Of a stretch of 64,000 nucleotides of DNA, positions 185-50,383 are shown in pieces. The notes beneath the pieces were generated by a model. That model did no database searches. It worked only from the letters and a program-made list of their open reading frames with translations, and was not told where the DNA came from. The stretch's first letter is position 1, and every line of letters starts with the position of its first letter. A program made the translations under genes and the position numbers. Source of the DNA: Thysanoteuthis rhombus (Eukaryota > Mollusca > Cephalopoda > Oegopsida > Thysanoteuthidae); assembly GCA_963457665.1 (NCBI GenBank), contig OY735201.1, forward strand, positions 28,452,048 to 28,516,047, written 5' to 3'.

Positions 185-185
185 C

Positions 186-17773: not shown

Positions 17774-17833
17774 TTGACATCTGAGAAGACAGAATGGCAA
17801 CCGTCCATTTTATTGTTTCAGCCTTGTTTGCAG
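17774..17833 (+). CDS. Copy B exon 2 (start codon, first half of signal peptide)
   Basis: A 60-nt exon after TTTTTTGCAG. ATG at 17794 starts MATVHFIVSALFA; the phase-1 donor GTAAAT follows. The 20-nt leader TTGACATCTGAGAAGACAGA is conserved in A and C. Confidence 0.9.
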
Positions 17834-20800
17834 GTAAATATTTTTGGTCATAACAAAATTCATCAGCAGTTGATGACTGAGGCTGATTTTTAGGGTGTTA
17901 ATCTACAGTCTTATGGGCCGTGGTTCAATCCAGACAGCGGAGACATACCAAAGACTTTTCTAAATGGCAGTCTCTGTCTGGCATCCAGCACTAGAACTAG
18001 GATTTGGGAATCTATCACTAAGGTCATATGTAATAGTTGACGGCTAAATCACGTTGGATATGGTGGTTCACGTGAGATCATCGAGTCAGCACTTAAATGG
18101 GTGATCGTTTGGGAATATCCGGTGCCGTTAGCAGAAAAATCAACAGCAGACCTGGCAAGTTGGCAGTAAGTCTTATTTACATATGCCTGTGTGCAAATAG
18201 CCTTATAACAGGTTTGATGAGGGTGTAAGAGGAGAAAGGTGAAAAAGATTTTCGTCACTCTTTGTTCCCTTCTGATGAAAGGAGATTCTTCAAGAGGACA
18301 ATTTATTGGTTCACATCTAAAACTCAATTATTACCTCTGCAAGCAAAGCTGAACGTTGTGTGTATTATCCTCCTATCTTACCGTCATCCTGTCTGTAACT
18401 CTATCCATACGATATCTCTGAAAGTTGTGAATGAATTTGACAGAACTTTCCTTGAGGCATAGGCAATTGGCTACAGAAGAAGTGATTGAGATTTTTTGGC
18501 TGGTCCATTCACAGTTATCCCGTCTACATTTTACCCATGTCAACACCATAGATTATCTTCGATTTTCCTCTGTCCCTGAATTCCAATGAGATTTTGTCGA
18601 AGGATAGGGCATGACTGAGGAAGAATTGATTACAATTTTGGACGGATCCAAAAATATTCCTCATTAACTTTCCCTAGTCGTAAGTACTTGTGGAATATAT
18701 TTTATTCAATTTTTAGAGACAGTGGCGTTGGTACACGTATGTGTCCTCTGAGTGCTTTATAGATTAACAGCATTGCATTCTGTATTTCACAGAATTTCCA
18801 GCTGATTATATTCTAATGTAACAAACGGAACTCATGTCGCATAATTTCGTGATATAAACTAGTATCGACAATAATAGAGACACAAACAGGTATCAACAAA
18901 TATGGAGACACAAGTAGAATCAACAAAGATGAATGTAATTGTCCTTTATTGGAACAATTTGTCCAGCGCATTAGATTCGGATTCTACGATAAATTTCAAC
19001 GATATTCTTCCAAAAGCTGTTCTGTTTCTATGGGATGGAAAATAAGGGCTTCTATTTTATTATCTTTAAAAATGTTACCTTAAATATGAGTATTTTACAT
19101 CCTGAAATAATAATTTGAAATATACGTTTCTATTTTTCAGTTATTGCCTTGAGCAGCTCAGCTAATGCCTTCTTTCCAGGTAAAATATGTGATTGAATTT
19201 CATTTTTTTTTTTCATTCGTTCAAGATTCTGGCAGGATGTTTTTACTAAAAACAATCACTACCCAATATGGGGTAGTAAAATTTAACATTGTCTAATCGT
19301 GATTTGAAATCGGGACTAACTGATTGAAGGTGACTATCTCTAAACGACTGAGCAAAATTAATAAAAATTACGCTTTTAACAAATACGAAAATTACAGTTG
19401 GGTGGAGTAGAAGTAGGAGCTGCATTTGGCTCTTCAACTGCCAGTCCTCTGAATTTCTTGAGCATAGTCCCTCCTGCAATAAAGATGATGGATGAGCTGA
19501 AAATTAGCATTTTCCAAATATGCTGCCATACGAAAATTTTTTCTTTTACTCGTATTCATTCTGATATTTATATCTTACAAGCTGAGGGACCAAGTGATGA
19601 CTAAAAGACTAAAAAATGACTGACACTTTCAGGGGAAAAGAGATTACGTTCACGTTCGACCCACTTGATGAGGGGAAATTCATAAATGTTTCTTCAATAC
19701 GATGAAATGCATTATTGCAAGGATGGAGTCTTCTCTTACTTTCGACCAACTGGAAAATTATATATAAGCATATAAGAAATTATGCATATGTATATGTATA
19801 CCTAATTTCATATCCAATATATGATGATAACTCTTCCTCTAAGGAAATGATACACAATATGTTAATTATTTTTTAAAGGATATAACTTATCATTCAGAAG
19901 GCAACCACAAACAAGTAGTCCTGTTGAGACAATAATATTTATAATGTTGATCCGTATAATAAATGTAACGTAAGACTTTTTCGAATTTCGTAGGTGCTTA
20001 CGGTGGATATGGACTTGGCGGATTCCACGGTGGATATGGTGGACACACTATAAGTCACGTGTCTCACGGTCTAGGAGGATATGGTCTGGGTGGATTCCAC
20101 GGTGGATATGGGCTCGGTGGATTTCATGGTGGATATGGACTTGGCGGACATACTGTCAGTCACGTGTCTCACGGTCTAGGAGGATATGGACTGGGTGGAT
20201 ACGGTGGATATGGACTTGGTGGATTCCATGGTGGATATGGACTTGGTGGACACACTGTTAGCCATGTGTCTCATGGTCTAGGAGGATATGGACTGGGTGG
20301 ATACGGTGGATATGGACTTGGTGGATTCCATGGTGGATATGGACTCGGTGGTCATACTGTTAGTCATGTGTCCCACGGTCTTGGAGGATATGGACTGGGT
20401 GGATACGGTGGATACGGACTTGGTGGATTCCATGGTGGATATGGACTTGGTGGTCATACTGTTAGTCATGTGTCTCACGGTCTAGGAGGATATGGACTGG
20501 GTGGATTTGGTGGATATGGACTGGGTGGATTCCACGGTGGATATGGGCTCGGTGGATTCCATGGCGGTTATGGACTTGGCGGACACACTATAAGTCACGT
20601 GTCTCATGGTCTAGGGGGATATGGTCTAGGCGGAATCCACGGTGGATATGGACTCGGTGGATTCCATGGCGGATATGGACTTGGCGGACATACTGTCAGT
20701 CACGTGTCTCATGGTTTAGGAGGATATGGCGGTTTTGGTTACGGAGGACTGTATGGTGGCAACTATGGCGGCTACGGTCATAGTCACTATGGCGTTGGTG

Positions 20801-21477
20801 CTCGTACTGTTACCCAATTACGTCACAGAATCCACCCCCTCGGCTATGGCATCGTTAACCAAGTTGGTCATGCAGTACATAGAGTGACACAACCAGTGTT
20901 TCATCATGGCGTTATTTCCCGCCGTTATGCAATTCCTCATACAGAAGTCCGTTACACCAGCTATCCAGTTGTAAATCGTTACATTCAATGGGTCACTGTC
21001 AACAAACCATACGTTGTACCCCGATATGAAACACACATCCGCTCATACCAAGTTCCAGTACCCCGTTATTCAGTCCATATGGCCGTGCGCCCTGTATACA
21101 TCCCAAGGGTTCATATTGCTGAAAGCCACCAACCAGTAACTCGTATCAGTCATGTGTCACATGATATCCATCAACCAATCTACGGAGTACATTACCCAAT
21201 GGGACATAGCGTAGAGGCTGTATCTCATCATCAACCTTTCGTGTATGGACATCATACTACTTATGGCAGTTACGGTGGAGGTCTCCACGGTGGTCATTTT
21301 GGCGGCTACGGTCTTGGAGGTTTCCATGGTGGTCATTTTGGCGGTTACGGTTTTGGAGGTCTCCATGGTGGTCATTTTGGCGGCTACGGTCTTGGAGGTT
21401 TCCATGGTGGTCATTTTGGCGGTTACGGTCTTGGAGGTCACTTTGGAGGTTATGGCTTTGGAGGTCACCACTTCTAG
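17794..21477 (+). CDS. Copy B: secreted Gly/Tyr/His-rich repeat protein, about 520 aa (suckerin/shematrin-like structural protein)
   Basis: Coding parts are 17794-17833, 19141-19179 and 19994-21477, and phase is kept across both junctions. The product begins with a signal peptide (MATVHFIVSALFAVIALSSS then ANA, likely cut after ANA), so it is secreted. The N-terminal half (about 28-297) is GYGLGG/FHGG repeats with seven HT[VI]SHVSHG blocks, in a unit of about 34 aa. A non-repeated core (about 298-451) is rich in Tyr, Val, Arg, Pro and His, with VVPRYETHI, VPVPRYSVHMAVRPVY and one Trp. The C-terminus is HFGGYGLGGFHGG repeats. There is no Cys and only one Lys. Such composition is known from extracellular load-bearing materials such as squid suckerins; the match here is by resemblance only. 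No catalytic motif. Start chosen as the only ATG before the signal peptide, conserved in three copies. Confidence 0.88.
17880..18040 (+). mobile_element. Probable tRNA-derived SINE in copy B intron 2
   Basis: Box B-like GGTTCAATCC at 17922-17931; box A is weak. The segment is absent from C at the matching point. A has a diverged possible counterpart, so insertion age is unclear. Confidence 0.4.
18042..18134 (+). repeat. 5S-rRNA-derived relic, sense in copy B intron 2
   Basis: GGCTAAATCACGTTGGATA, GAGATCATCGAGTC, CAGCACTTAAATGGGTGATC and TTGGGAATATCCGGTGCCGT follow 5S rRNA, with about 15 nt missing in the middle. Position and orientation match the relic at 3780-3664 in copy A. Confidence 0.8.
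19141..19179 (+). CDS. Copy B exon 3 (second half of signal peptide)
   Basis: A 39-nt exon after TATTTTTCAG, encoding VIALSSSANAFFP, with donor GTAAAA in phase 1. Counterparts are in C (42626-42588) and A. Confidence 0.88.
19180..19993 (+). other. Copy B intron 3
   Basis: 814 bp ending in TTCGTAG. The frames at 19246-19604 show no domain. Confidence 0.7.
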
Positions 21478-21516
21478 ACTATTCTTCTGATACATCGATT
21501 ATACTGGATAGAATCG
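19994..21516 (+). CDS. Copy B exon 4 (repeats, core, stop, short 3' UTR)
   Basis: Starts GGTGCTTACGG. The stop TAG is at 21475-21477. The exon ends 39 nt later at GAATCG|GTGAGTATT, a donor also present in C 41 nt after its stop. The N-terminal repeat has a DNA period near 102 bp and is highly homogenised. Confidence 0.85.
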
Positions 21517-23472
21517 GTGAGTATTGAATCATTGTTTCGCCATTTTATTCTATGCACAGTTTCACAATAACAGACCCTATCCGTGGATATTCAACGGTTT
21601 GAACAAATATCTAAAATATCTATTTATTTATGCATCACTCAATTCCCGCTTCTGCATCTATCTGTCATCATTTCTCAGAAAACAACAGTTCATTCTTCCC
21701 ATACTTGTCCTCCCTTTTCCGAATTTTTCTCCCTTTTGTTGCTGTCTATGCAAATTATTTGCCCAATTTCGCCCTCCCCCTCCTTTTCTTTGTTTATCTC
21801 CAATTTCAAAATACTTTCAAATTCAGCCTCTCATTTCAATATCCTCTTCCCTGACCCCACCTTGTCGACAAATTTTCAGAATGGATCAAGGTTGTCGTCC
21901 CGTTGTATTACAGCACTGACGACTAATCTGTCTTCAAAGATCTCTTTTCCTTTACAGCGTGAGTTTGGGAATAGGGATGGTAGCAGCTACATGTGATGAT
22001 ATTTCAAAATATAGATTTTCCCTCGTTGTGCGCATGTTGTAAGCATTGATATCATTCGGGAGTAAAATTTCAGGTTTGGAGAGTACGGCTGAAAAGGCTG
22101 TAGAATGGGTAACTCAAGACTTCTGTTAACAAACAACAAAAATTGTTCAATTGTCCAAAAAGGCTCTTTGCTTTCCTGTTTCCATCCTACCCTCCCTATT
22201 TACAGTGTGCTCTTATGGTAGCAGTTATACCTAATATTGATCATACTTTTGTACTCCGATTTCACTTTTATTTTTCCGTATTTGCCTCTCTCTGTTCCTC
22301 CTTTTCAAATCCCCTCTTTTTGTCTCTCTTACATTTTTGGTCCCCTTTTTTTCTTCCTATCTTTGTTTTGAGCTTTTGGTCGTTTTCTTGGTTCTTTCTC
22401 TGCATCCCTAACTCGTTATCCATATTTTATAGTCTTTCTAATGTCTTAGCTGGCTTGCCTTAACATCAGTCAATGTTTGAAACATAATGTATACAAAAAA
22501 AATTCAAAAAGTAGTCACTGTTCTTTTAAATATATTTCAAACAGTACATCTAAATACGCCACCATATGAACACTTTCACACGTACGTGCACGTGCATTCA
22601 TAGTCATATACAACACCTTTGTTCCATTGATAACCCTCCTCCTCCCTCAGAAATGACACTCTTTTTTACCCAATTTTGAATACAAAGCATGCCAAGCAAG
22701 TGCCGAGATTGCTAAAAACAAATCCTAGCTAAGGTACTCAATCATCGATTAATAATGCATGCCATACATTATGGGAGCTGAAAATGATAATACGTACATG
22801 TGCCGGCGAAGATTTGTTAATATTGGTGTCCAATGCTTAATTGAGTCATGGGATCCTTTCAGGTTTTCTTTGTCGGTGGTAATTGCACTCAAAAATAAGG
22901 CATGAAAACTTGAATTTGTCCTCATGTACAAGGCAGAATTCTTTTTCATCTTCTATCGCATCCTGTTAAATTCGATCACCCTCAAACATATAATAAACGG
23001 TTCATTTTTGCTTACGGTCACAACATGAACTTATTACATCTGATCATAAGACCATTTCATATATATTTTTAAAATTTTTTAAATATTCTTCAATGATACA
23101 GAAATCGTATTTGTTCCACTGATGTACAACGTATTCCTCACACTGTATGCGTATGTATCGTCTTTCCTACAGCCCATCCGTTCCATGTGTCTTTCTCTCA
23201 AACTTATGTCATTGTTATTAAACTATACTAAGGCTACAATTTCTGATATGATTTGATAAGTTTGATAATTGATGACAGAGGTGATAAGATCTTTGAATAT
23301 AATCATGTTTAAAATCTTACTTATTTCATTGTCACCTGTGTTTCATTCAATTATTCATTTATTCCATTTGAACCTGTGACACTCAGCAGGACCTTGCAAT
23401 CTAATAACGGGGCAAGACTCGTACAGTGAAGAACCCTACATTAGAGTAATTTTGTTTTTTTGGTTTTTTTAG
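21517..23472 (+). other. Copy B intron 4 (3' UTR intron), pyrimidine-rich
   Basis: Starts GTGAGTATTGAAT and ends in GGTTTTTTTAG. Long C/T-rich stretches (about 21660-21960 and 22150-22440) create open frames without domain content. C intron 4 is similarly pyrimidine-rich in sense. Confidence 0.65.
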
Positions 23473-23578
23473 GGATCTGCACAGATATCCTTCCAATCTG
23501 ACAACAGTCGAATACAAAAGCAAGTCATTTTTATATTGTAAACACTGAAACAATAAAAAGTTGCTCATTATTAATTCT
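23473..23578 (+). other. Copy B exon 5 (3' UTR with poly(A) signal)
   Basis: Begins GGATCTGCACAGATATCC after an AG acceptor, has AATAAA at 23552-23557 and is followed by T/G-rich DNA. The same exon occurs in C at 38940-38838 with conserved start and AATAAA. Confidence 0.75.
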
Positions 23579-25500
23579 CTGATTTTGTCGTTTTTTGCAA
23601 GTATCAATTTCCTTTCTTATTTTAGAAAATACTTGATTAATAGGTTAGCTCAGTGATTCTGAATATTTTCTACTCGTTGCCCAAACTTGATACATAAAAG
23701 ATTTCATTTCCTCTAATTATAATAAGAAAAAAAAGCAGTTTGATTTCGTGACTAATTCATGGTAAAATGAATGTTCACATATGAATTTCAGGGCACTTAC
23801 CAACACTGTACAGCGTGGAATTCAGTAACTGCAATTACCTCATCGCTTCTACTACCACTGTCAAAAATGATGTAATCTGCACGTCTAAAATCTTCACATT
23901 TTTCTTTTATCTCGGAGCAAATAACCAACTCACAGTTATGACACAAGTGTCTAGTTTGTTTGATGTACATTTCATGGAGCCAAAAGGTTCAGCTCTTGAA
24001 CAAACATTATTTTGCATTCTATTGAAAAAGTGTGTGCTCGATCCCAATTTGTATATGTCCGTGTGTTTCTGCGCTCAGGGCCATACTATTTTGTCTATAG
24101 ACTTGAAAATTAGCATCAGTACTCCGTTAGATCCTTTCTAGAAATGATCCTTTAAATTTTTTGAAAAAAATACTCTCTCAACTTTTGGGGGGGACTTCAT
24201 TTTAATCACAACATCTAGACTCTCGAGGATGTAGATATTTCTAGATGTTTTTCTGCTCTATTTTAGATGCTTTCTAGTGGTGAACGCCAATGATGTCTTA
24301 CCTAGAATTTATTCTTGTCACATTAATTCTTCGATAGAATGTTCCTTATATGATTTTGAATTTTGACGCTCCAGTTGTTCAATTATTGGCTGTATCGGCG
24401 AATTTGTGATTCGTTTTTACAATGGAGTGAACAAAAATGGATGAACACCCTCCAAGTGTGATAGTTTGATGATTATTGCCAGATTTTGAGTATTTCATTT
24501 GGAATCTATAGTAAAAGTAGAATTTTATAATACTGTGTAATTAAGAGTCAGTAGCATTGCATGATTAAAAAATAATCAGTTGAGTCAATTCAGTTTTGAG
24601 CCATGGAACGTTTTTGGCTATTCACACCATAATTCAAAATTTGCACCAATGACATTAGATAGGACATGAATCCATCTGCTCCGTATACCCAAGCTTTGAG
24701 TAAAATATCTAAAAAAAACAGGAAAGTCCACCCCATCCAGCACTGTGAGGGGCGGAAGATAAGTGGAGAACGCGTTCCCAACAGGGACACTTGATTGAAC
24801 TTTGGTGAAGCTTCGACAGGCCCAGGAAGCCGAGAGTGGATTATAGACAATGATAAATACTTTTGTGAAATATAACCCCAATAGCACCCTCGATGGTACG
24901 AGCCAATGAATGACTGGTGCATTTTAGTTTTTTGTGTTTTCGTTGAGAAAGGAAGCTTTATTAGGATTTCCATATAACTCAATTTAGAATTCAAAAGGAA
25001 AGTTGGATTGATCGAAATTGGAAAAATAAAAATGAAGAATAGAAAGTTGATTATTCTGCATATTTTGAATTATATTTTCACAATATTAAAACAACATTTG
25101 CTTGTTCACCAGAAAGTTCAGATTTTTATATTCAATGTTGGGTACGTAATAACAAAATTTGAAAAAAAAATGCGTTTGGCTAAATCCTGAATGATCGACC
25201 AAATTCATTCAATATTCAAAGACCCTCCCGGGCAATAGAATTCGAATGACAGAAAATTCATGAATTGATTCAATGTTTATTATTATTTCTCCGTTTATTA
25301 TCCTATAAGTCCAAAACTGAAACGTTTTCGAAGTCTTTAGATTTGATTCCAATTCAAATGCACTCAGATACCTGATTTGTTTTTTGAAAAAAAGTGACAA
25401 TATTTTTGTAATTCAATGTTTGAAAATGATTAATGCCCTTATGCTGGCTTAATCCTAAAACTACTTACTCAGCTTGTTTGCAATGTGAAATAGACTCATA
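23579..25500. other. 3' flank of copy B
   Basis: Stretches near 23780-23810 (TATGAATTTCAGGGCACTTA) and 24500-24640 (TCAGTTTTGAGCCATGG) are homologous to the flanks of C (38660-38380) and of the orphan flank at 58.4-58.7 kb. The rest is unassigned. The minus frames at 24590-24994 show no known domain. Confidence 0.55.
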
Positions 25501-25502
25501 GG

Positions 25503-25663
25503 CAGCAAGCACCTGAGATGGCACCACTCACTTCACCTTGCGCCATTTAACCATAGCTATGTGAAGGGCATTGGTCTGAGATAAACACAAACATTCCCAG
25601 CTGGAGTTTGAACCTGGCTCTCCATATCCATTCTTTGTGACGTTATCTGCTAGGTCACCAAGC
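25503..25663 (-). mobile_element. tRNA-derived SINE
   Basis: Minus strand: box A-like TGACCTAGCAGATAACG (25657-25641) and box B GGTTCAAACTCC (25614-25603) at tRNA spacing, then a non-tRNA body. Confidence 0.65.
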
Positions 25664-26029
25664 ACCTTCATGTTTACCATTGATTTGATTCTTAGTTGTT
25701 ATGCTGAATCAACATTTTTTTTACTGAGGTATTTTCAAAGTTTATTTGAACGTAAATATTTATAAGTTGACTTTAAACTTTCTAACAAAGAAACAAAAGA
25801 GATTCTACTCAAAACAGGTTTTGTTTCGGATTTTAACAATGTGCAATGGATGTCCTTCAACTTCCTACCAAAGTCAAAATACGGAAAAAAAAAAGAATCT
25901 TTAGACATTTACTTTTTTGCCGTATTTTGACTCTTTTGCAAAACGAATATTCTTTGTTCTTGAAAGTCTTTTGTGGCGTCCATCAATCTCAGTAGAGAAG
26001 ACAACAACAACAACAACAACAACAACAGC

Positions 26030-26076
<47 letters not shown>

Positions 26077-26440
26077 GAATAATAATAAGAATAATAATAA
26101 TCGATTAAATGGGGGCGGATAGCTATACATTAGAATTTCGGAGATATAGGTCAGCAAGTGATTCATGGAATGCACATTCCCCTCAGCATTTATCTCTAAC
26201 CACGCCATACACACGCATGTCTTACATAAAGATGGAATACTTCGGTTGGTAAGGGCTGGTGGAGTTTTAACCAACCAACCAGGGCATCGATCAACGTTAC
26301 AGCGCCACAAACCAAACTATATATAATATAGACGATAATAGTTTTCCCACATAAAAATCAAGATCCGGTTGTTATAACAGCCAATTGTTCCCATGTTGAT
26401 TGTCAAGAGGGACCTCTTCACTTTGCATCTGTTGTTCCCA
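25664..26440. other. Unassigned, with (AAC)n(AAT)n at about 26003-26103
   Basis: The trinucleotide run makes a poly-Leu or poly-Ile reading frame that is not a gene. It may be the tail of an element no longer recognisable. Confidence 0.5.
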
Positions 26441-27770
26441 ATTTCAGGCGAGAACGGAGGTTGGATCAATTGTTATCAAGAAAAAAAGAATCAGAGATGA
26501 AAGAGAACAGTTGATCAGTTACCAAATTTCAATTAAAAAGTAAACTATCTGTTAGGATTACAGAAGAAGCATGCTCACAATATGGAGAGAATAGTCCGTA
26601 GTAGATGTCTCTAAAGAGATTTTTTTAAAATCTCGCGGCAATAAAGAGATTGAGGATTACTGAAGAGCAAATTGCACGCAGATAAATTAATAGCCAGTCG
26701 TTGAGACATAAAAAAACATTTAAAAAAGGGATACCCGCTGTGATGGAAGAAATACACCAAAGGAGACTAGTGAAAGGATCAACATCACGGAAACGTAGAA
26801 GAAAAGATTGCCCGAAATACATAAGACTGTTCTTTCCAAAACAAAAAAAAAGATTTTGCTAATGGTGAAAGGAGACAGAACATAATATCAGACACCACAC
26901 ACGCACACACTTTTGGACTGTGGCGATGTTAAAAAGGACACAACGAATTAATAGTATTGTTATTAAATGATGTTTTTTTGTTTGTTTTTTTTTGTTTTTT
27001 TTCAACTACAACATATAGACGGGGTGACAAATATAATTGAATAGAACCAAAATAAAAAAGAAAAGAAAACATTTTTTTCATAACAGACAAGTGGAAAGCA
27101 CCAGTGCCAGGTGGTAACCATGTATATTGGTTCAAGAAATTCACTACATTAAATAACTGGCTGACCAATCATCTTCGAAGTTTTCAGGATGAAACTTATG
27201 GTAAGGTCCCAGACTTAGATGGTTAGAGGGGGAATAACCCTTATTCAAAGGAACTCTTTGAAGGGGATCAAGTGGGTAACTACAGACCGATCATATGTCT
27301 ACCACTAATGCAGGAGATTCTGACTGATCAGATTGCAGAGAAAATATATATAAATTCCATTGGAAGAAGGGGATAATTACCAGATAAACAAAATGAGTAC
27401 AGAAAAAGGAACAATTTGAGAAAATTACTCGTTGTATATTTTAGAAGAATCAAGGAAGAAGAGAATGTTGCAGTGACATAGGTTGATTACAAAAAACATG
27501 AGACATGATCCTGCATAGCTGAGTAATCAAATTCTTCAAAGATATGCAAGATCAACGGATCAGTGATGAGATTCATAGACAATTCTTTGAAAAACTAGAA
27601 TCTAGACTTGACACCTACAGGGGTAAGCTCAACAAAGATGGACATGAAAAAGAAGAATATATCATTTTTTGTTCAGTTTTCGCTAATGATGGTATTACTA
27701 AATAGAGTTTAGGGTAATAGCAATGAATAACAAGTCTTTCATAAAAGAGGGTAGGGCAACCGATCTGTAT
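26441..27770 (+). mobile_element. R2-type LINE fragment (N-terminal to RT region)
   Basis: Collinear with the better copy at 50386-53650. It has the KKGIPAVMEEIHQRRL region, a KAPVPGGNHVYWFKKFT block, NYRPIICLPLMQEILTDQI and VTVDYKK-like RT motifs. Many stops and frameshifts. Confidence 0.7.
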
Positions 27771-28932
27771 ACAAGGTCGACAAAAATCGATTTTAGAAGA
27801 GGGAAGAACTCAAAATGCTTTCCAACCAAGTTAAAGAATAAAATGGTCACATCCAATGATTTCTCTATAATTCAATGTTAGTAATTGATTTTTCTTAGAA
27901 ACTGTTTTATTACTCAATTGAAGTAAGTTGGAAGTTTGAAGTAATGAGGGAGAGATATGAACAGATGTATGATGTTTGGCTGACTACTTATAAATATAAA
28001 GGAGAGTTTGGCGGCTCATTGAATGGGGTAGGTAATCCCAGATCTAACAGGGAACCAAGAAAAAGCATTATTGTTCCACACAAATTGATAGACATGAACA
28101 GTAAAACTGGATGAAGCGATATTTATTGTGAAGGTCCGCTTCATATCAAAACATAAATCAAGAAAGGGATAACATCAGATTTAATTGACATAAAATACAG
28201 GTACGAAACAGAATTAAAGAGACAACTACACACCCCCAGATGACAAAAGAAGGAAATTTTGGCTCAGCCCCTTTCCTTTCGGTTCTGGAATATTGACCCA
28301 AGGACAACGCTTCCCAACCGAGAGACAAACAGCAAATGCCTGAACTAAGGCAAATTTGTCTCTGCCCATCGACCACCCGAGTTAACTTACCCTGGTGAGT
28401 ACCCAAACATTCTATCTCTGTTTCATTCTGTTTTTAATTTGTAATAATTCCATTTGTCAACAGAAGGGGAATGAATTTTACTACCTGAGAGAGACTATTC
28501 AACCTCTGCAGGTCAACTATATGAGAGAAAGATTGATCTCGGTGAGTACCGTTACTTATTATTGTTTCTTTTATTTTCGTTTTTATTACGCATCCCAGGT
28601 TTAATTGTTGCTTCAATAATGTAATTCGTATATGTGTTGATTGGGGGTGGGGATATAGCCATATATGAAAAATTTGATTACGTAGGTGAACGAGTTATAT
28701 TTGGAATGCAGTCTTCGAACTATCCTTCACAACAACATACCCACCCCTGTCTCACATTACCAAGATAAAATACTATGCGTGCTTTGGGCTGGTGAAGATC
28801 ATGACTTTTACTGATTTAAATCAATTTAACCAACCTGCAAGATTTTGGAGCGACCTTCCAGCAACACAAACCAAGCAAGGATGGATTTATGAAATTATGG
28901 AATCATCATGAAAATGAAGCACAAATTCAAAA

Positions 28933-28963
<31 letters not shown>

Positions 28964-28966
28964 ATC

Positions 28967-28998
<32 letters not shown>

Positions 28999-29730: not shown

Positions 29731-29739
29731 ATGCATTTC

Positions 29740-31935: not shown

Positions 31936-31972
<37 letters not shown>

Positions 31973-31975
31973 ACA
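31085..31975 (+). mobile_element. RTE-type LINE fragment with (GAT)n tail
   Basis: KKGVRQGNTSS (RT motif), FADNIILFAENLYDLQLML (the catalytic FADD reads FADN), SKTNVM, KRITLGWLALGRVSSTF, KLKWQWAGQIARM and a (GAT)n run at 31938-31974. Trinucleotide 3' tails are typical of RTE. 5' truncated and frameshifted. Confidence 0.8.
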
Positions 31976-32934
31976 CACCCAAGCACCACTGATTGAATGG
32001 GGAAAATTTTATCATTATGTTTCTTTTTTTGGAAAATATCCCTTCTGAATAGGATTTTATTGGAGGATTCAATTAATAAGTTAATGCTTAGTTGGTTCCT
32101 TAATTTATTTCAACTCATAAAGCAAAACGTATCATAAATACCCATAAATTAATAGTAATTCAGAACTTTACTAGGAATGCTAATTTTTTCGTTTCGTTTT
32201 CAAGAATTTGTGAGTCCATTTTTTACGATGTTTTAAATTTTCTTGATTTATTTTTTCATCTCTTAAAGCTTAGTATTACTGATTAATATATTTTTTTAAT
32301 CTTTAAAATTTGAGATGGACTCCCTAAATCAAAATATTGAAAAATCAAATCAAAAGTCCAGGTAGAATGGACTTGGGATACAGAGGGAAAATGAATTAAA
32401 AAATGAACCAAACTTTGGATTAGGGAACGAAAGGAAGCAGCGTTGGTTCAACTACATCTTTCCAGTTTCAGACACGAAAGTATATAACCTCTCATAACCG
32501 GTAGGTGTTCTTTAGTTGGCTGCTAGGAAGGACCTCATCTTTCATTATTCGCCACAATTCTGGTTTGTGTACCTTACAAGGAGAGGGTACAATCGTCAGG
32601 GAGAAACTGTTGGACTAAATAATGAGAAAAATTATCTATTTATTGTTACCCAAAGAGCATCTGATCAAATAGAGGTCACAGACAACGCTCATTAACAGTA
32701 TGAAGAGATAAATCCACGGTAGAGACATCAAGTCAGTGTTTGGCTGATCGAGCGGAATGAATTCCGAAAAGAAACTGGATATAAGAGATAAACATGGAGG
32801 GAATCTGCCAGAATATAGGAAGAAGATGAACGTGAATTATCGTCAGAAGACCTGACGTAACTGATACATTAAACGACGAAGTAGGACGTCGAAACCCCAA
32901 TGCAAGGAGAGGCCGCTGCAATACGTTTAGGGCA
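31976..32934. other. No gene recognised
   Basis: AT-rich. No domain or element identified. Confidence 0.4.
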
Positions 32935-33611
32935 GGGATTGGAAAGAATTAGAAGATTCAACTGAACATGTCAATTACCTCTTATAGCTTATTTGAACTA
33001 ACAACATCATGCTGGTGCAAATAATGGTAAGAAACATCTTTATGCCATAAGAAGTAACAAGACACCTGCCTTTGAGAAGAATATTTTAGAGACAGATCTC
33101 CCAACTGCAGGAAGACATTGGATTCCAAAAAACACATCAGACATGAACACGCCACAAGAAAGACACTTTTTGACACATAGAAGATATGACATAAAGGGGT
33201 ACCCGCTGCGGTGGAAGAATACTAGCCAAAAAAGCAAGGCTAAAGATATTGACAGATGATTTTCCTATACACCGATAACCACACTTTCAAAAACGAGGAA
33301 AGATAATTTCATTAAGACTTGAATGAAAATAGAAAACAGAATATAAAACCGGACGCCAAGAACACGAAGACCTCCTCCAACAACATATGTGGATGTCAAA
33401 AGAGACACAGTGCATATCACATCTACATTACAGATTAATCTAAAAGCTCTAAATTACATACGTAGAGGCGAGATCTCGGAATGGATAACCAAAAGCAGAA
33501 TATCCCTATTCCAAAAGGATACTTGAAAAAATAAGAATTATGTTAGCAACTATAGACCAATAACTTGATTACAACTGGTGTGGACAGTCTTGACTGGACA
33601 AATCAAAGGGA

Positions 33612-33661
<50 letters not shown>

Positions 33662-33740
33662 AAAGATGAGAACACTTACCAAAAAAAAGAAAAGTAACAA
33701 AAAGGGATCAAATGAGCCAATGACTTCCATGGACCCTGTC
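32935..33740 (+). mobile_element. R2-type LINE fragment (N-terminal region), with (TA)n at 33616-33660
   Basis: EHVNYL, GVPAAVEEY and DNHTFKNEER parallel EHVNWLLQHI, FPAVVEDIHQ and QNCTFQNNERK of the best copy, then NYRPIT-like sequence. It stops at the (TA)n. Confidence 0.6.
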
Positions 33741-34850
33741 TACCCGCTGGACGAATGTATTACCTTTTTATTGCTGGGTGTTTCTCCCACGAACTCATGA
33801 CAAACGTTTGTTCGCATTCCAAACCAACAAAGCCTCCCTTATCACGGGAGCCTTCGTCCAATTCTCCTTGACACTCGACCAACTTACCCGACACGACATT
33901 TTTTTTTACCCTTTCAAGCTTTCACTCAGTTTGCACGAAAGTCCTGAGAGTGTTTTTGAATGTGCCCTCGGTGGCTTCATAGCCAACAAATGATGTTCGG
34001 TCGGTTCAAATTCCTTCAATCGGATGCTTTGCTATTTTCATATACGTTTTCAGTTGATTCAGTAATTCTACTACCTACTTAATGGTCCATGGTCACCAAA
34101 AAAAGAGAGAAACAGAGAGAAAAAATGCACTCACCTGTGTTCCTCATTTGTCTTGATCTGTTGCTGTTGAGATCCGCTGTCATTTGTTCCCTTATTTACT
34201 TTGGTTTGGTAAGACTGTCTTGCTGTGCTTATCGTGGTATCTCCAAGGTTGAAGCTTTTTAATCGAATATCCAAACTAGGAGCGATCACCTGTTGTGTGA
34301 TGAGCTACTGGGAAAAATATGTGGTATCTCATAACTTAGGGATTCCCAGGCTTATGACATATATCGCAGATATCACGTGGCGCAGCAGATGCGAGGTAAA
34401 AGGCGGATAAAACGGAAACGTTTGCTGGGATGCAAGAAAAAGTGGACAATCTGCTTACTTGACCTTTGGCGTATTTCGTTGACCACAGACTGTGAACAGC
34501 TTTTTTTTATTGGAAAGGACCTTTGGTTTAGATCTGGGTAACATACGTCGTGTGCCTAAGAGAGAACTCAATCCTAATAAAGCCATGAAAATAAACAAAA
34601 GTTGTTTCAGTCGATAAACACCACTTGAGGACAATAGTTTCGCCCGAAGAGGTTTGCAGATCACGAAAAACACTAATCATTCTTTGGAAGACCTGTCTCG
34701 ATTGATTATTTTAAATCCATGCAAGTTGTTCTCTGTCCACAAACACCACTTGAGTTTTGCTGTCTGCAAGGTTTTGCTGTGCACAGCAGCATTTTACATC
34801 ATAAGAATGTTGCAATGGGATAGATTGACTTCAGAAAAGTAAACCACATT
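33741..34850. other. Unassigned segment with higher GC
   Basis: 33741-34000 is visibly richer in C and G than its surroundings. A minus-strand frame includes WSSVKENWTKAPVIREALLV and a plus frame of 71 aa starts at 33778. I recognise neither. Confidence 0.35.
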
Positions 34851-35165
34851 CTCACACGTAGATGGATAATCGAATACATAAGATAACAGATGAGAATCAG
34901 TGGTGAGATTCATAGGCAACTATGAAAAATGAAAACCTGGAAAAACCTTATGAATAACTCGATTACTGCAGTTTGAACTTTGACAGAAGTAAGGGTGTAA
35001 AAGTTGAGCACTTTGTCCAAGTGAATATTTTTATTAACCATGATACCACTAAACAGAATCATTAGAAAACAACAACAGATACCATTTCTCCTAAACAAAG
35101 TGAAAAATCAACCATATTATGTACACGGGTGACATAACCGTACGTTCAAAGAACAAAAATTCAGA
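34851..35165 (+). mobile_element. R2-type LINE fragment (RT palm region)
   Basis: Parallels the RT section around 51650-51900 of the best copy: a RISGEIHRQL-like start, then LTMIPLNRI and PFLLNKVKNQPYYVHG. Truncated both sides. Confidence 0.6.
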
Positions 35166-35169
35166 ATTC

Positions 35170-37310
35170 AGTTCAACTGAGTCAAGGAATACAGTGATGA
35201 CACTGGATTGGAATTATGAAAACTGCTGTGAACAGCAGAAATGCTGAAAGGAAGGCTGACAACTTGAATGGACTTCAAATATCCAACAGACCCACCAAAC
35301 ATCTGATATGAACGTAGCTGGACACTCAATTGCCTTAGGATATTAAAAATTGGCAAACCAGTGGTGGGATCTATACCCAACTCCATGAAAAACTGGGATG
35401 TAATCGTGATAGATGCTCTTTGTCCCTACGACTATTTGTACTAACCATGAAATCAATGAAAATAATCTCAAAAACAGCATAGGATATGTCAACCTTCTTA
35501 CGTACATAGACGACAGCTATTTGTAATGAACAGAAAAAAGGAAAATTTGATCAACAAAAGAAAAATACAGCGACCACATTGGAATGGAGTCCGAAATAGA
35601 AAAATATGCGCTAATGATAGAGAGGGATTCGAGCTACAGAAAGTATCGGACAACAACAAAAATAGTGCATTGATATCACAGGACCAATAAAACTACCTAC
35701 GGGTTCTCGAATGTGACTCGACAAAATAGGGATGAATGAATGAGAAAATATAAAAGAATGTGAAAGATATTGGAGACTGAACTAAAGAGATGAAATCTTA
35801 TAAAAAAAAAAAACAGAATCGGTCGTAAGATACACAGGTTCATTTCTTGGATGGACAAAAGATGAACCCCAATCAATGGACTGGCAAACAAGAAAGCTTT
35901 TATGACGATGCCCAAGGCTCTACTCCCTGAAAATGATTCTGATAGACTGTACGTGAAGATGAATGAGGGTGAAGGAGGACATATCCGGAAATATAAAGAC
36001 ATCAGCAGAGAAGGCTGTGTCATGAAAGCCGAAACAGGATTAGAAAAGTGTGAGCAAGAAAGCAAAGAAGATATTATGCAAACGCTCGAAGCAATGCATT
36101 GAACAACTTAAAAACGAGGGGACACCTAAGATAACAACAAGAGAAGGATAATGGACACAGCAAAATACACCAGGAATTCAAAAGATTGATATAGAATATC
36201 GCTGACGAGTGATCACGTCATGACTATGCAAAGGGTAATTGAAAAGAGAAAGAGATTCCCTCATCATGGCAGGCAAAAACCAGAGCACAAGGACGAACTA
36301 TGTCAAGGCAAAGATAGACAGAGTCCAGACAAATATCAAATGCTGCTTATGCGGAAAAAAACAACGAAACAAGTGATATCCGCTGCGGTGGGAGGAATAC
36401 AACCAAAAAGACTAGTCAAAGAAGCAAGAGTAACGCGGTATAGACAAAAGCATATAGTACCTCACTTTCAAAAACAACAATTCATTAAGACCTGAATGAG
36501 GGAAAGAATACTGGGATAGCAATTATTCGAAACAAAGGGGGAAGTCAACCAACCAAAATATATGGATAACAGCGATCACATTTGGGATGGGCTTTGGAAA
36601 TGGGAAATGCGTACTGATAGTGATGCACAGGGCAAGGATTATAGCGGCAGAAAAATGGGGCATCAACAAAGCAGAGACGATCTGAATCCCCGGGGGTTTT
36701 CAAATGTTACTCAATAAAACAGGAAGAAATAAAAGAGAAAATAGAAAAGAGATACCTTAGAGAGGTCAGAAAAATTATTATAGACGAAGCCAAATTGCGA
36801 GAAATTGATAAAAGAGATGAACACGGGGCAAAATTGGTAACAAGATACACAGGTTCCTTTCTTGAATCGGCAAAGGATGAACTCCAAAAATTGGCCAGTG
36901 AACAATGACACTTATCAAGATACACAAGGTTCTAACCCCAGGAATAGAACGAACTGTGCATGAAGAGGGAAGAATGCAACAGAGGACTCATCAGCTTTGG
37001 AGACCGTGTCTAAAAGGACAAAATGAGGTTAGAAAATCATGTACAAAAAAGCAAAGATAATATGCAGAGTATTCGAAGCAGCGCGGCAAACAACAAAAAA
37101 GTAAGAAAGTACAACAAACGAGGAAAAATGGGAACGGAGAAAATACGGGGGTTCAAAACACAGATAGAAAGTATCGTAGACGAGCGATCATCGATACGGA
37201 TACACAAAAAAAAACTGGAAAGAAAAACAGATTGCATGTTCTTTATGGCACAAAAACAAGTACATTAGGACAATGTATGTAGATTAAAAGAGATTTGCTG
37301 ACACAGTCTC
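35170..37310 (+). mobile_element. R2-type LINE, two or more joined fragments
   Basis: 35400-36350 covers RT thumb to just before the zinc knuckle (VVRYTGSFLGWTKDEPQSMD). At 36350-36500 an N-terminal block reappears (KQVISAAVGGIQPKRLVKEA). 36530-37310 again covers the thumb region (HEEGRMQQRTHQLW). Head-to-tail or nested pieces of one family; defective. Confidence 0.7.
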
Positions 37311-37369
37311 CGGTAATGACTATCAAACATTTAATCTGAACATGCTCACCCATGAATGATATCCACCAT

Positions 37370-37900
37370 TTTTTGCCCTTTGTTTTAATGCTGGTCTTGG
37401 ACAAATACCTTATCCGGGAATCACCTGACCCCCCATCGTGGGTGTCAAGGACCCAATACTTTCTGAACTTGTAAAGTCAACTTATTTTCTGTTGGCCATA
37501 GATTCGCATATTATCTGTGGGGACCCATGTTGTGAGTCGTGATGCCCAGTGGTAGTTTGATATTCTTGTTAAATATAACCAGCCCATTGCCATTTGAGTT
37601 TCATAATGAAGTCTAAGATGTCACGGACTCTATTTTTTTTCTTTTTTGTACTCTGCTGTCTTGTGATCACTCAGTGTGACGTTGAACATGATTGTCTCCT
37701 GTGCACGTTGCATGGTTCCAGTTTAAGGGTCAATCTTCTTACTACGGTCCATGTTTCAGGTCCATGGGTGACTATCATAGAATGCGTTGGTTGTAAGGAC
37801 TTTAAGGACTCATAGGATATACTTGTTCTTTAAGGGTTCAATTCACTCTAAAGAAAGCTTGCCCACCTAGAATGATTCTCCCCTTGATTTTCTCTTTTTT
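37370..37900 (-). mobile_element. RTE-type LINE fragment, 3' part
   Basis: The minus strand reads MKLKWQWAGYI, then HHDSQHGSPQIICESMANRK, close to KLKWQWAGQIARM and its sequel at 31720-31800. Broken. Confidence 0.65.
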
Positions 37901-38837
37901 GAGGATTTATTGGAGGGTCGTTGTCTTTGTTAGATGTAGTGGTATACTCTCTTTTTTCATTTCATGCCACGTCCTCATTTTGTTCTCTGCCTGCTACTGG
38001 GGATTTAACCCCTTCTGGGATGTTATTTAGCCACTGGTGAATCTCCATTGTTCTTTTCTTAGTCAAAACACGTCAGCAAAAAAAAATGTTTTCGCTGAAT
38101 ATGATAGAAAGACCAAAGTAAACTACTAACGTTTTTTTGATCACATATTCATCTCTCTGTTGATCTCAAAGTCAATCATTGGCAAGACAATTGTCAAGTG
38201 ATTTGTTTGTGGAAAATGTCTTTTCATAAGCATCATAAACAATCAAAATTGAGATTTAAATTCGGTTTGCCAGCTCCGTTTTCATATCAACTAAAAAAGT
38301 TACTCTAAACGTCAAGTATACCAACCTCCAAGGGAACCTTTTAGATAAAGTGGAGAGGAGAGTTTGAATTAAGGTGTTAGAAGCGAAAAGCATTTTATGG
38401 CTCAAAACGAAATCGTATAATGGCTCAATTGATTAATTCCTAATCAAACAATATCATAAATTCACCACAATACTGTTACATTCCAATTTTAATTTAGATT
38501 CTATAGCAACTAATGACAAACTCATTAATGTTATGAAGTATAAAAGGGATGTGGCAAATATATTGTAACCAGCTCTCACACAATAAAGAAACTACAAATA
38601 TTTTAGTAAGTGCCTTAAAGTTCATATATCAATATTTATCCCCATGGATCTGCAACATGATATACAATTTGATTATTTCTTTATTTCTTTGGTAAAAGGG
38701 ACATTAACACATCGAGTTGATGAAATGGGACCTGGAGCAAAGACATTTAGAATCACAGAAGTGACCTATATATCAAGTTGTTTTTTACCAAAACGAAGAA
38801 GAAAATTGAGACTTCGAATAAACAACAAAATCAGAAA
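37901..38837. other. 3' flank of copy C
   Basis: 38380-38660 is homologous to the flanks at 24500-24640 and 58440-58720. No gene seen. Confidence 0.55.
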
Positions 38838-38940
38838 GGTATTGATAAGCAACTCTTTATTGTTTCTTTGTTTACAATATGAAATAGACTTGCTTGTGAA
38901 ATCGAGCGTTGTGAGAATGTAAGGATATCTGTGCAAATCC
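38838..38940 (-). other. Copy C exon 5 (3' UTR with poly(A) signal)
   Basis: Starts GGATTTGCACAGATATCC after CATTTTAG; AATAAA is at 38861-38856. It is the counterpart of 23473-23578 in B. Confidence 0.75.
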
Positions 38941-40487
38941 CTAAAATGAAAGAAAATAAGATAATTCTTATACAGGGTTTTTCAGAGTAGGGACTCCGTC
39001 CCATCAATGGGACGTAATGTCCAGTAGGTTCGGAGTCAGATTCACAATGATTAAATGAAATAAATGATGAGGAGTATGTGAGAAATATACGGATGGAAAT
39101 TAAATTTCAAAAATGAATATAAGTTATAATCATATTACCTTCGTTATCTAAAAATTATTCGTTGAAATCATAAACTTATAATAGTAACGATAACTTTGAC
39201 ATGGTTGAAAACAGATAACAGAGATTCAATGAGAGAGAGAGGGGAGTGAGGGTTAGTAGGCAAGATACAATTCATTGGAGTAGAGTACGAAGGGTGGGTT
39301 CCACACATCTTTAACTTCTTTACATGTCTTTAAAACGTAAACCTGTTTACTTGCATTCAAATTTCAAGAGTGTAACGTGGTCCTTCATTTTAGGTGTTAT
39401 ACCTTTGTGACCTGACCCTTAAGATAAATTGGATCGTTTATTATATGTCAATGGATCACGATATCATTGGATTAAACTTGTATTCAGTTGAAGGAACTCT
39501 GCTCTTTATCTAAAGATGTATTTAGATTTACATGCTTCTATTGTAATTACAAAAGAGACAGAACACCTGAAATATCCCTAGACTCAGGAACTATAGTACA
39601 AACGCATCCATGTTAACACTTGCAGGTATCAATATTTTTCTGTCTGTAAAATCAATTGCAAAGGAACAAGATTTAATGATAAAGCACCTTAGATGGAAAA
39701 ATGCCACTTGTTAGGATTTATAGCAAGTGTGTGTGTGTGTGTGCGTGTGTAAGTGTTTTTGTTTCGTGTGTGTGTGTATGTGTGTTTCGTGTGTGAGCGT
39801 ATACTGAAACGAAAACACGGAAAGAGTGAGAAAATGGTTGAAAATACGAGAGAAATAGAAAGACAAAATATGTGAAGGAAACTACGAAGGAAAGACTAAA
39901 AGGTAGACGTGAAGTAAAACTGCAAATGCAGAGTCTGTAATGAAGGCTCCAATATCACACTGAAGAATAACACTGTAAAAAGAATGGACGGAAAGAGATG
40001 GAAGCCCGATACTAGTTACTGCTGTACACCAACCCCAACACCCCAACTGATATCTCAAACCAACCGCCAGTGGTCGGGGGAGAAACAGGCAAATATATGT
40101 TTGGAAGTAAAACGCCGAATCTAAAAGTATTTAGGAATTGAAACTAACAAAAGAGAGGGTGGAGAAAGAGAGAGAGTTGAGATAAAAATCCTCACTGAAA
40201 GCAAAGAGGAGTACGAATGAATGAAAAGACCGGAAAGGAATTTTAAAAGGGGGGGGGTGAAGAAAAATCGTCATAGGGAGAAAAGAATGAAAATTAGTGG
40301 CATGCAGGGGAGAAATGATTATATGATTTAAAAAATAATGATGGATATATAAGATGGCAATACATATAAAATAGACAGGTATTTATTATCGTAAGGTATT
40401 TTCAACGCCATTGAATTTCCATGGTACTGCTAGTTAATACAATACTGTGTACTGGATACAATAAATGAAAAATAATTCAATACTCAC
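38941..40487 (-). other. Copy C intron 4 (3' UTR intron)
   Basis: Donor GTGAGTATTGAAT at 40487. Pyrimidine-rich in sense, with a (TG)n run at about 39727-39800. No domain. Confidence 0.65.
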
Positions 40488-41673
40488 TAATTCTTATCCG
40501 GTACAAACGGTTCTGTCAGAAGAATCGTCTAGTGGACAAATCCGACACCGTAACTGCCATAGGGACCTCCAAGACCGTAACCACCATAGAGACCTCCAAG
40601 GCCGTAACCACCATAGTGACCTCCGAGCCCGTAACCGCCATGGTAACCTCCAAGACCGTAGCCGCCATAGGAACCACCGTAGAGACCTCCAAGACCGCCA
40701 TAAGTAGTATGATGTCCATACACGAAAGGTTGATGATGAGATACAGCCTCTACGCTATGTCCCATTGGGTAATGTACTCCGTAGATTGGTTGATGGACAT
40801 CATGTGACACATGGCTGATACGAGTTACTGGTTGGTGGCTTTCAGCAATATGAACCCTTGGGATGTATACAGGGCGGACGGCCATATGGACTGAGTAACG
40901 GGGTACTGGAACTTGATATGTGCGAATGTGTGTTTCATATCGGGGTACGACGTATGGTCTGTTGACAGTGACCCACTGAATGTAACGATTTACAACTGGA
41001 TAACTGACATAACGGACTTCAGTGTGAGGAATTGCATAACGACGAGAAACGACGCCATGATGAGCAACGGGCTGTGTCACTCTATGTACTGCATGACCAA
41101 CTTGGTTAACGATGCCATAGCCGAGGGGGTGGATTCTGTGATTCAATTGGGTAACGGTACGACCACCAATGCCATATTGACTATGGACACCTCCAAGACC
41201 GTAACCGCCATAGTGACCACCATACAGACTTCCCAGACCGTAACCACCATAGTGACCACCATAGAGACCTCCAAGACCGTAACCTCCAAGTCCTCCATAA
41301 CCAAAACCACCATATCCTACTGGACCATGAGACACGTGGCTAACAGAATGGCCTCCAAGTCCATACCCACCATACAATCCACCCAAACCGTATCCACCGT
41401 ATCCACCGTACAGGCCACCCAGACCGTATCCACCGTATCCACCGTACAGTCCACCCAGTCCGTATCCACCGTACAGTCCACCCAGTCCGTATCCACCGTA
41501 TCCACCGTATCCACCGAGTCCGTATCCACCGTACAGTCCGCCCAGTCCATATCCGCCGTATCCGCCGAGTCCATATCCTCCTAGACCGTGAGACACGTGA
41601 CTAACAGTATGACCACCGGGTCCATAACCACCATAACCGCCCAATCCGTATCCCCCGTACCCACCATATGTAC
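40488..41673 (-). CDS. Copy C exon 4 (repeats, core, stop)
   Basis: Acceptor TTTGCAG just above 41673. The stop TAG is at 40531-40529, with the 3' UTR donor 41 nt further. The in-frame start is in exon 2, not the internal TTG at 41644. Confidence 0.87.
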
Positions 41674-43224
41674 CTGCAAAATTTAAAAAGATATAACGTC
41701 AATCGTTTTTCAGACCGATGGATATTGAAAATACAGTCATGAAAAGCAAATGTATTTTGATTGAATTGTGAGTAAAAGTTACACCTCTTCAGATTAATTA
41801 ACTCAATATGCACTTGTTATCAAACATTCAAAATCAAATTCCAAGCAATTGTCTTTTTCGACATACTTGTTTAAAATTGTTTTATTTAGTAAGACTCCAC
41901 AAAGAAAGCACCGAACATTTGGAACGATATAATAAAAAAAACATACATTCAAAGACTGTGGTAAAGAATTTATTATTTTCAATGATCTATTCATCTAATT
42001 CAATAAATTTATTCAAGATTTTAACTTCTCTTTCCGTTAACACTCATATAGTGAATATATTTTTATGCACAAAGGTTCTACCTTTAAATTGGAGAGTTCA
42101 TGGTTGCGTACAAAAACAGAAGCTATTCCCGTTTTCCGTCTTTTATCGAACCAGTTACATGAAGTAGCCTGTCGAAAAGCGTGGACTTGACTCTGTATTT
42201 TTACATGTTTTCATGTATTAATTTTCATCCAGAAAATAAACTGAAGTGAATCTGGCAAAGTGCTAAATTCCTTTGCTTAAAGTGGCTAGTAGGAGATATT
42301 TCCTAGCAATTTTGTTACGGTCAGAAAACCACGAAACTCACACCGTTTATAAGCATATAAGTAGATGATAGTGATCTGATATGATCTTACACTAATTTTT
42401 TCTTGAGTAAATGTTTAATTTGTTAGCGCAGATATTTGGATCTTGTATTATACATTATATTGATAATTTTGATACAAATTTTAATATGTACTCTGAAATA
42501 CGCTGTTAGTATAGTAAAAAAAACAATTGACAGAGGTTACAAAAAAGCCTGAAAGAACCAAATCAAATGGTCATTCACATATGTTACCTGGAATCAAGGC
42601 ATTAGCAGTGCTGCTCAGCGCAATAACTGAAAAATAAAAAGAATACATATTTCAACTTATTATTGCAGAGTGAAATATATTCATATTTCTGATAAGGCTT
42701 ATAAATTGGAGGGAATTATTTTTTCTACCCATTGAAAACTATGAAACTGGCGTGAAGATATACTTTAAAATCTTCAAATCTTTAGAATCTTCAACTTACA
42801 AACTCTAATTCCAATGCGCTTAAAAAATTGCCTTATCGATAAAAGTCTACATTCAATAATTGTTGATACTTGTTAGTGCCATTATTACTTCCATAAGCTA
42901 CCTTCTTTATATAATCAACTTGAAGGGAAATGCAGAATGACACGGGTTCGTTTACATAATAGAATGATATTTGGATGTAAACCTATAAATTGTGATCCTA
43001 TGGAATCACTCAATGGTCGAAAGGGAAATGAGAAAAAGAAGAAATCTGTATCATCGTTCTTCCCTTATACCCTCATCAAGAGTATTACCCGGTCAGGTAC
43101 GCACGAGCAATTGTTAGTAAGACTCACTTCTAGGCCATGATGATCAACTATTGATGTATTCTGTAATGAAAAAAAAGCATTTACCTGCCAGCAAAGCCGA
43201 AACAATAAGATGAACGGTTGCCAT
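40529..43224 (-). CDS. Copy C: secreted Gly/Tyr/His-rich repeat protein, about 407 aa
   Basis: Coding parts are 43224-43185, 42626-42588 and 41673-40529. The signal peptide MATVHLIVSALLAVIALSST then ANA is nearly that of B. N-terminal repeats (about 28-198) use YGLGGLYGG units, so Leu-Tyr stands where B has Phe-His, and only two HTVSHVSHG-like blocks occur. The core (about 199-352) is almost the same as in B, with about seven substitutions by eye over some 150 residues. C-terminal repeats are YGLGGLYGG and GGYHGG. No Cys and no Lys. Probably an extracellular structural or adhesive protein, inferred from composition and signal peptide. It faces B tail to tail. Confidence 0.87.
41674..42587 (-). 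other. Copy C intron 3
   Basis: 914 bp; GTAACAT donor, TTTGCAG acceptor. The frames inside (for example 41808-42167 plus) show no domain. Confidence 0.65.
42588..42626 (-). CDS. Copy C exon 3 (end of signal peptide)
   Basis: A 39-nt exon encoding VIALSSTANALIP, phase 1 on both sides. Confidence 0.87.
42627..43184 (-). other. Copy C intron 2
   Basis: Only 558 bp against 1.3 kb in B. The first bases and the 43120-42960 part align with B, but the SINE and 5S relic seen in B are missing here. Confidence 0.65.
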
Positions 43225-45017: not shown

Positions 45018-45035
45018 CCGAAGACGCTGTGAACT
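45018..45035 (-). other. Copy C exon 1 (5' UTR)
   Basis: From the initiator TCAGTTC to the donor TCGG|GTAAGTG. Only 18 nt if the start is the initiator A; the real start may lie a few bases upstream. Confidence 0.65.

Positions 45036-50329: not shown

Positions 50330-50383
<54 letters not shown>

Follow-up and report, generated by a model that had tools for sequence, protein, structure and literature searches.

Suckerins are models for tough, water-processable thermoplastic proteins. The family is defined by long Gly-rich modules, among them the GLYGGYGV sequence of suckerin-19, which forms gels with beta-sheets and stacked aromatic residues (PMC6839752). A genome study reports 13 suckerins for Doryteuthis pealeii, all on a single chromosome and grouped in two closely linked clusters, 16 for Euprymna scolopes, and none found in Octopus bimaculoides (PMC9068888, 2022). 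In Loligo vulgaris, suckerin-6 mRNA is located in a cup-shaped group of inner sucker cells (PMC9839350). The histidine-rich beak proteins carry a GHGLY repeat and show repeat-driven phase behaviour (PMC10766971). Here, we describe two genes, B and C, in a stretch of 64,000 nucleotides from the oegopsid Thysanoteuthis rhombus (hereafter the window; GenBank assembly GCA_963457665.1, 2.73 Gb in 514 contigs; contig OY735201.1, labelled C4, positions 28452048–28516047). An original prediction had placed a family of Gly/Tyr/His-rich secreted proteins at window positions 17794–43224, with a near-invariant core between fast-changing repeats. We focus on the identity of these genes, on their genomic setting and on how the core is kept alike.

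Identity and genomic setting of genes B and C

By homology, B and C are decapodiform suckerin genes of the suckerin-6 type, with the core of Suckerin-6. When 5.8 billion proteins were searched for the B core (expectation value, E, up to 1), two matches were returned from 52 candidates, both named Suckerin-6: one from Sepioteuthis lessoniana (A0A081DU90; 77% identity, E 2.4e-57) and one from the golden cuttlefish (Acanthosepion/Sepia esculentum, A0A081DUA6; 75% identity, E 5.4e-54). The Sepioteuthis core as a query retrieved the same two proteins, from 7 candidates. A profile of five full proteins also matched both, together with one fragment entry whose first part matched the Sepioteuthis protein; among the best 7,990 candidates scored, no other suckerin was found at E up to 0.001. 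These three protein searches admitted subjects of 0.55–1.75 times the query length, so that much shorter or longer relatives may escape them. As Suckerin-6 alone matches the core, the core belongs to a described protein. The named Suckerin-6 proteins also have in common with B and C their signal peptide (15 of the first 18 positions are invariant in an alignment of the leader region) and an N-terminal Gly/His repeat arm, with Gly/Tyr/His repeats that include VSHVSHG. The resemblance to suckerins noted in the original prediction is thus borne out. Its view that the core was unrecognised, with no suckerin known to carry it, no longer stands, as the core search that it proposed leads to a described family. 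A separate database entry (P0003), predicted at 205 amino acids, corresponds to the Sepioteuthis suckerin-6 repeat arm with a frame switch near the core start, and is probably a faulty gene model.

The gene models of B and C are predictions from conserved splice sites. Both are open and in frame, encoding 520 and 407 amino acids in coding pieces of 40, 39 and 1484 nucleotides and of 40, 39 and 1145 nucleotides, respectively. The predicted span was exact at both ends: the B start codon, on the forward strand, has its A at position 17794, and the C start codon, on the reverse strand, has its A at position 43224. The predicted non-coding exons 1 and 5 of both genes fall outside it. The core measures 155 residues and differs at 7 of them between B and C, which agrees with the earlier estimates of about 154 and about seven; at the nucleotide level there are 29 differences over 465 bases, of which 19 fall on third codon positions. 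Chance likeness is excluded, because the B core finds the C core at E = 1.6e-98 in a six-frame search of the window. The repeat arms do differ in unit, number and length, as had been described. FHGG occurs nine times in the N-terminal arm of B and never in that of C, LYGG once in B and seven times in C, and SHVSHG seven times in B and twice in C; the N-terminal arms are 296 and 197 residues long and the C-terminal arms 69 and 55. The earlier idea of separately tuned repeats describes this divergence of the arms correctly, but replication slippage is enough to explain it without adaptive tuning. Both proteins are without Cys and have almost no Lys (one in B, none in C), as had also been seen, and their Gly content is 32.7% and 30.5%.

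The window sits in a second, expanded suckerin-6-type cluster on C4, apart from the main suckerin cluster on another contig, C1. Our genome searches scored the best candidates only, so that the counts of genes and remnants are lower bounds. There are at least six intact core genes, five on C4 (B, C, L009, L010 and L011) and one on C1 (L012), and at least five broken core remnants, all on C4 (A, L013, L015, L016 and L017). The whole Suckerin-6 protein as a query returned the same six open core genes. The VSHTTHH pattern, which we take to be the motif of canonical suckerins (AATAVSHTTHH modules alternating with Gly-rich modules, as in suckerin-19), has 36 matches, of which 33 lie in C1:62.396–62.842 Mb; a reversed control pattern has 8 genome-wide. 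At two of the matched places (L023 and the gene formed by L024–L030), the sequence translates as canonical suckerins. The C1 suckerin-6 gene lies 115 kb beyond the C1 cluster. The presence of this canonical cluster fits a squid or cuttlefish rather than an octopus.

The C1 copy is 334 amino acids long, 9 of them past the core. Both this copy and the named Suckerin-6 proteins end just after the core, whereas the five intact C4 copies continue for 50–72 further Gly-repeat residues. As the homology of the core is clear, we treat the C4 layout, with its internal core, as derived, and B and C as suckerin-6-type variants rather than orthologues. With canonical suckerins, B and C share that they are secreted and Gly-rich with GLYGGYG-type repeats. 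The one canonical gene examined (L035) has a similarly split signal peptide and a 39-nucleotide exon 3, as in B and C. The canonical genes found have no core, and the core search matches only one place on C1. When L035 and the 40 kb surrounding the C1 copy were searched for the promoter, exon and 3' untranslated region (UTR) blocks, a single marginal match was obtained, to exon 3, in L035.

On either side of B and C are conserved blocks that resemble, at the 5' end, a TATA promoter followed by a non-coding exon 1 and, at the 3' end, an exon of 3'UTR. In the seven copies for which it was measured, the TATA block lies 1.2–3.1 kb upstream of a second conserved block, which is located at the ATG. 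This second block was rejected as a promoter, as it consists of a splice acceptor and exon 2. Genome-wide, the B promoter block has 14 matches. One is at the C1 copy, and the other 13 lie in the C4 cluster, where 6 of them belong to B, C, A, L009, L010 and L011. Three further promoter loci were fetched, of which two (L036, C4:28298100–28306000, and L037, C4:28317000–28325000) are open, with predicted models of 316 and 414 amino acids and the same signal exons, and one (L038) looks degraded. Neither open locus has a DNA-level match to the core at E up to 0.001, and L037 retains repeats like those that follow the core in B. As their exon 4 donor is gone and an exon 5-like sequence with AATAAA stands close after the stop codon, the 3' ends of both genes are rearranged. 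Four other copies of the promoter block are found at C4:28346400, 28361290, 28397750 and 28414854.

In the suckerin literature, of which our search had partial coverage, we found no account of a second suckerin-6 cluster on another contig, of homogenised or internal cores, or of core-less sister genes. The part covered discusses the family as a whole or suckerin-19, not the suckerin-6 core. The core itself is thus already known, and its setting in the C4 cluster was not found described.

Selection and probable exchange in the core

The core is under purifying selection. Between B and C, the nonsynonymous distance (dN) is 0.029, compared with a synonymous distance (dS) of 0.197, and dN/dS is 0–0.18 in all 15 pairs of the six intact cores. 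Fisher tests were significant in all five pairs tested, with p from 6.5e-7 (B and C) to 3.4e-18. The cores of L009 and L010 have 10 silent differences and no amino-acid difference. Private changes in intact copies favour the third codon position (positions 1:2:3 in C 1:1:8, L011 1:1:7 and L012 6:3:27), and those in broken copies show no such bias (A 8:8:9, L013 22:15:11, L015 18:12:8 and L017 13:7:9). The broken-copy counts are supporting evidence only, since sites were limited to those at which all intact copies agree, which disfavours third positions.

Next, we compared how far different parts of the C4 genes have diverged, with the C1 copy as a yardstick. The mean distance within C4 divided by the mean distance from C4 to C1 (bootstrap range in brackets) is 1.02 (0.83–1.25) for the promoter block, 1.08 (0.83–1.44) for exon 3 and 1.08 (0.90–1.31) for the 3'UTR exon (exon 5). 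For the core it is 0.40 (0.30–0.52), and for core third positions 0.39 (0.28–0.53). This means that the core is 2.5 times closer within C4 than to C1. Core dS is 0.08–0.35 within C4 (10 pairs), compared with 0.50–0.57 to C1 (5 pairs). In the signal exons (26 codons, without L011), dS is 0.34–0.54 within C4 (6 pairs) and 0.36–0.57 to C1 (4 pairs). The introns have diverged to near-random alignment: the p-distance in the intron after exon 2 is 0.41–0.50 in six C4 pairs, and at the start of the next intron it is 0.41–0.58 in nine of ten C4 pairs, with 0.58 in the shuffled control. As their parts are unequally alike, the C4 copies are not simply young.

These distances bear on two simpler explanations. 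Selection alone could keep the B and C cores near-invariant with no need for exchange, and the low dN/dS and the purely silent differences between L009 and L010 are what it would leave. However, it does not account for silent sites that are also too alike within C4, as seen in the third-position ratio next to those of the promoter, exon 3 and 3'UTR, and in the core dS within C4 next to that to C1. We therefore regard selection as the only cause as unlikely. Recent duplication would instead make the C4 copies young and alike throughout, with a core under no special constraint or exchange. The low core dS within C4 agrees with this, but the near-random introns, a signal-exon dS that is equal within C4 and to C1, and a core dN far below dS do not. 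The intron, signal-exon and distance-ratio results refute recent duplication unless introns evolve abnormally fast, which leaves it very improbable.

The simplest account of these distances would be repeated exchange between the C4 copies, by gene conversion or unequal exchange, confined to exon 4 and not involving the C1 copy. Such a limit would be expected where only that exon is still homologous enough. Selection and exchange thus both appear to act on the core, and exchange appears to explain much of the closeness of B and C. The earlier claim of strong selection on the core holds as far as selection itself is concerned, although selection is not the sole cause, as homogenisation explains much of the likeness. 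The earlier treatment of selection and conversion as alternatives thus appears not to hold up. The locus lets selection and exchange be separated, and an unlinked copy and several broken ones serve as its controls.

Charge partition and a possible role of the core

The charged residues of these proteins are concentrated in the core. It contains every one of the 15 Lys/Arg and 5 Asp/Glu residues of mature B, and likewise each of the 14 Lys/Arg and 5 Asp/Glu residues of mature C. The same confinement is found in L009, L010, L011 and both named Suckerin-6 proteins. The predicted core-less L036 and L037 proteins have no Lys, Arg, Asp or Glu at all. His is spread beyond the core, which holds 18 of 64 in B and 18 of 32 in C.

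Together, these results probably describe suckerin-6-type genes in a second cluster on C4, whose core is both selected and homogenised and would act as a charged block for assembly or solubility. B and C would be products of the sucker epithelium, secreted into the sucker ring teeth or a similar hard structure, in which the uncharged Gly/Tyr/His repeats may self-associate through beta-sheets and aromatic stacking, with His providing a pH response. The cationic core, present once per chain, would keep secreted chains soluble and may limit or direct their packing, register or co-assembly. Exchange between copies would keep this shared block identical across chains, and the repeat arms would drift in length and unit. 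A part that has to be compatible from chain to chain would be expected to stay conserved across genera and to be homogenised among gene copies, as the core is. Spider-silk terminal domains offer an analogy, as they also form a conserved non-repetitive block next to variable repeats. No sequence homology to them was found, as a PDB sequence search with the core gave no match at E up to 10.

Several observations weigh against this interpretation. AlphaFold2 on the core with four sequences gave a predicted local distance difference test score (pLDDT) of 26.7, and hence no fold that would back a docking role. The C1 copy is an exception to the charge partition, with 12 of its 15 Lys/Arg in the core and 3 outside. 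The two open C4 genes that do without the core imply that it is dispensable in some chains. VSHTTHH occurs in none of the six core-bearing proteins, and in the C4 copies its place is taken by the His-rich SHVSHG; without these Ala-/His-rich modules, B and C are not filed as canonical suckerins. The evidence for homogenisation is not perfectly clean either, as the exon 2 block shows some closeness within C4 (ratio 0.72, 0.52–0.99). As trees of the core and of the promoter-near block have no supported inner branch, the argument rests on distances, not topology. The private changes in B (1:1:2), L009 (0:0:3) and L010 (0:0:1) are too few to reveal a third-position bias on their own.

Two other origins of the C4 proteins were weighed. 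They may have been recruited to another material, for instance that of the arm hooks, the beak, the skin or the egg coat, where a role specific to it would maintain the core. Their separate contig, the post-core repeats in all five intact C4 copies and the lack of VSHTTHH modules would suit such a change, and oegopsid arm hook chemistry has been reported as unanalysed (PMC8688392). However, the promoter block is common to the C4 genes and the C1 suckerin-6 gene, and Loligo suckerin-6 is expressed in sucker cells (PMC9839350), so that recruitment seems improbable. B and C could also belong to another Gly-rich family, such as the histidine-rich beak proteins, which they resemble as Gly/His-rich squid hard-part proteins; their likeness to suckerins would then be compositional convergence. 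A His- and Gly-rich composition, the absence of an Ala-rich module and the lack of a Pfam match to the core speak for this. Yet the core aligns to named Suckerin-6 at 75–77% identity, the GHGLY beak repeat does not occur in any of the six core-bearing proteins, and the gene structure is common with that of a canonical suckerin. Unless the database names are wrong, the Suckerin-6 core identity and the structure of L035 refute such a convergence, and we give it next to no weight.

Within the preferred reading of a selected and homogenised suckerin-6 core, the two open sister genes that lack the core hint that chains of more than one type are mixed. Tentatively, and with the balance against it, the second suckerin locus may encode a two-component, charge-segregated material, in which core-bearing chains hold all of the charge in the core, and core-less chains, from genes with a promoter of the same kind, hold none. 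The core would then be a shared, homogenised docking or solubility signal between freely varying arms, and the ratio of the chains would set the formation of the material. If some paralogues have indeed lost the charge-bearing core outright, the genome offers a natural comparison of chains with and without it.

Further searches had little yield. A profile search of PDB gave a single match, to a transketolase at E 0.36, which we take as chance, and an Rfam search gave nothing useful. We tested the core for two-residue alternation and saw none. Residues around 86–125 of the B core show a weak self-similarity at an offset of 14 residues, with a score that 4 of 300 shuffles reach.

Coordinates and other features of the window

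The features of B, C and a broken third copy, A, are listed in Table 1. In copy A, exon 3 has 38 nucleotides rather than 39, exon 4 contains an in-frame stop and the first donor is altered. Its core lies beyond the window and has two stops inside.

Table 1. Positions of suckerin-6-type gene features in the window (position 1 is the first base of the window).
Feature	Position	Strand	Basis or remark
Gene B TATA element (from 14584) and predicted non-coding exon 1	14584–14649	+	Last exon base 14649, then GTAAGT; block conserved upstream of B, C, A, L009, L010, L011 and L012
Gene B exon 2, with the start codon and the beginning of the signal peptide	17794–17833	+	Gene model
Gene B exon 3 (39 nucleotides), end of signal peptide	19141–19179	+	Gene model
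Gene B exon 4, encoding the mature protein (last base of stop codon 21477) and entering the 3'UTR as far as a GTGAGT donor	19994–21516	+	Gene model
Gene B core, 155 residues	20803–21267	+	Suckerin-6 homology
Gene B predicted exon 5, 3'UTR, AATAAA at 23552	23473–23557	+	B, C, L009, L011 and L012 share the acceptor and AATAAA; L010 has a weaker version
Gene C TATA-like element (from 45068) and predicted non-coding exon 1	45018–45068	-	Last exon base 45018
Gene C exon 2, with the start codon and the beginning of the signal peptide	43185–43224	-	Gene model
Gene C exon 3 (39 nucleotides), end of signal peptide	42588–42626	-	Gene model
Gene C exon 4, encoding the mature protein (last base of stop codon 40529) and entering the 3'UTR	40488–41673	-	Gene model
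Gene C core, 155 residues, 7 differences from B	40697–41161	-	Six-frame match to B core
Gene C predicted exon 5, 3'UTR, AATAAA from 38861	38856–38940	-	Conserved acceptor and AATAAA
Broken third copy A	1–6231, running past the left edge of the window	-	Promoter block 6043–6195; exon 2 3978–3939; exon 3 2390–2353; exon 4 from 184

Copy A and gene B both have a 28-base minisatellite in the intron that separates exon 2 from exon 3, at window positions 2629–2795 and 18856–18931, respectively. Their units are of one kind (GTTGATACTTGTTTGTGTCTCTATGTTT and its complement). At 51693–52241 (forward strand), an open frame of 182 amino acids matches the RVT_1 reverse transcriptase family at E 2e-13. Parts of the region 48622–52984 recur elsewhere in the window at 63–73% identity, and the frame is therefore probably a retroelement remnant. 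Near the C1 suckerin-6 gene, at C1:62930501–62940500 (L031), there is an open frame of 471 amino acids that by eye is like the retroelement frames of the window.

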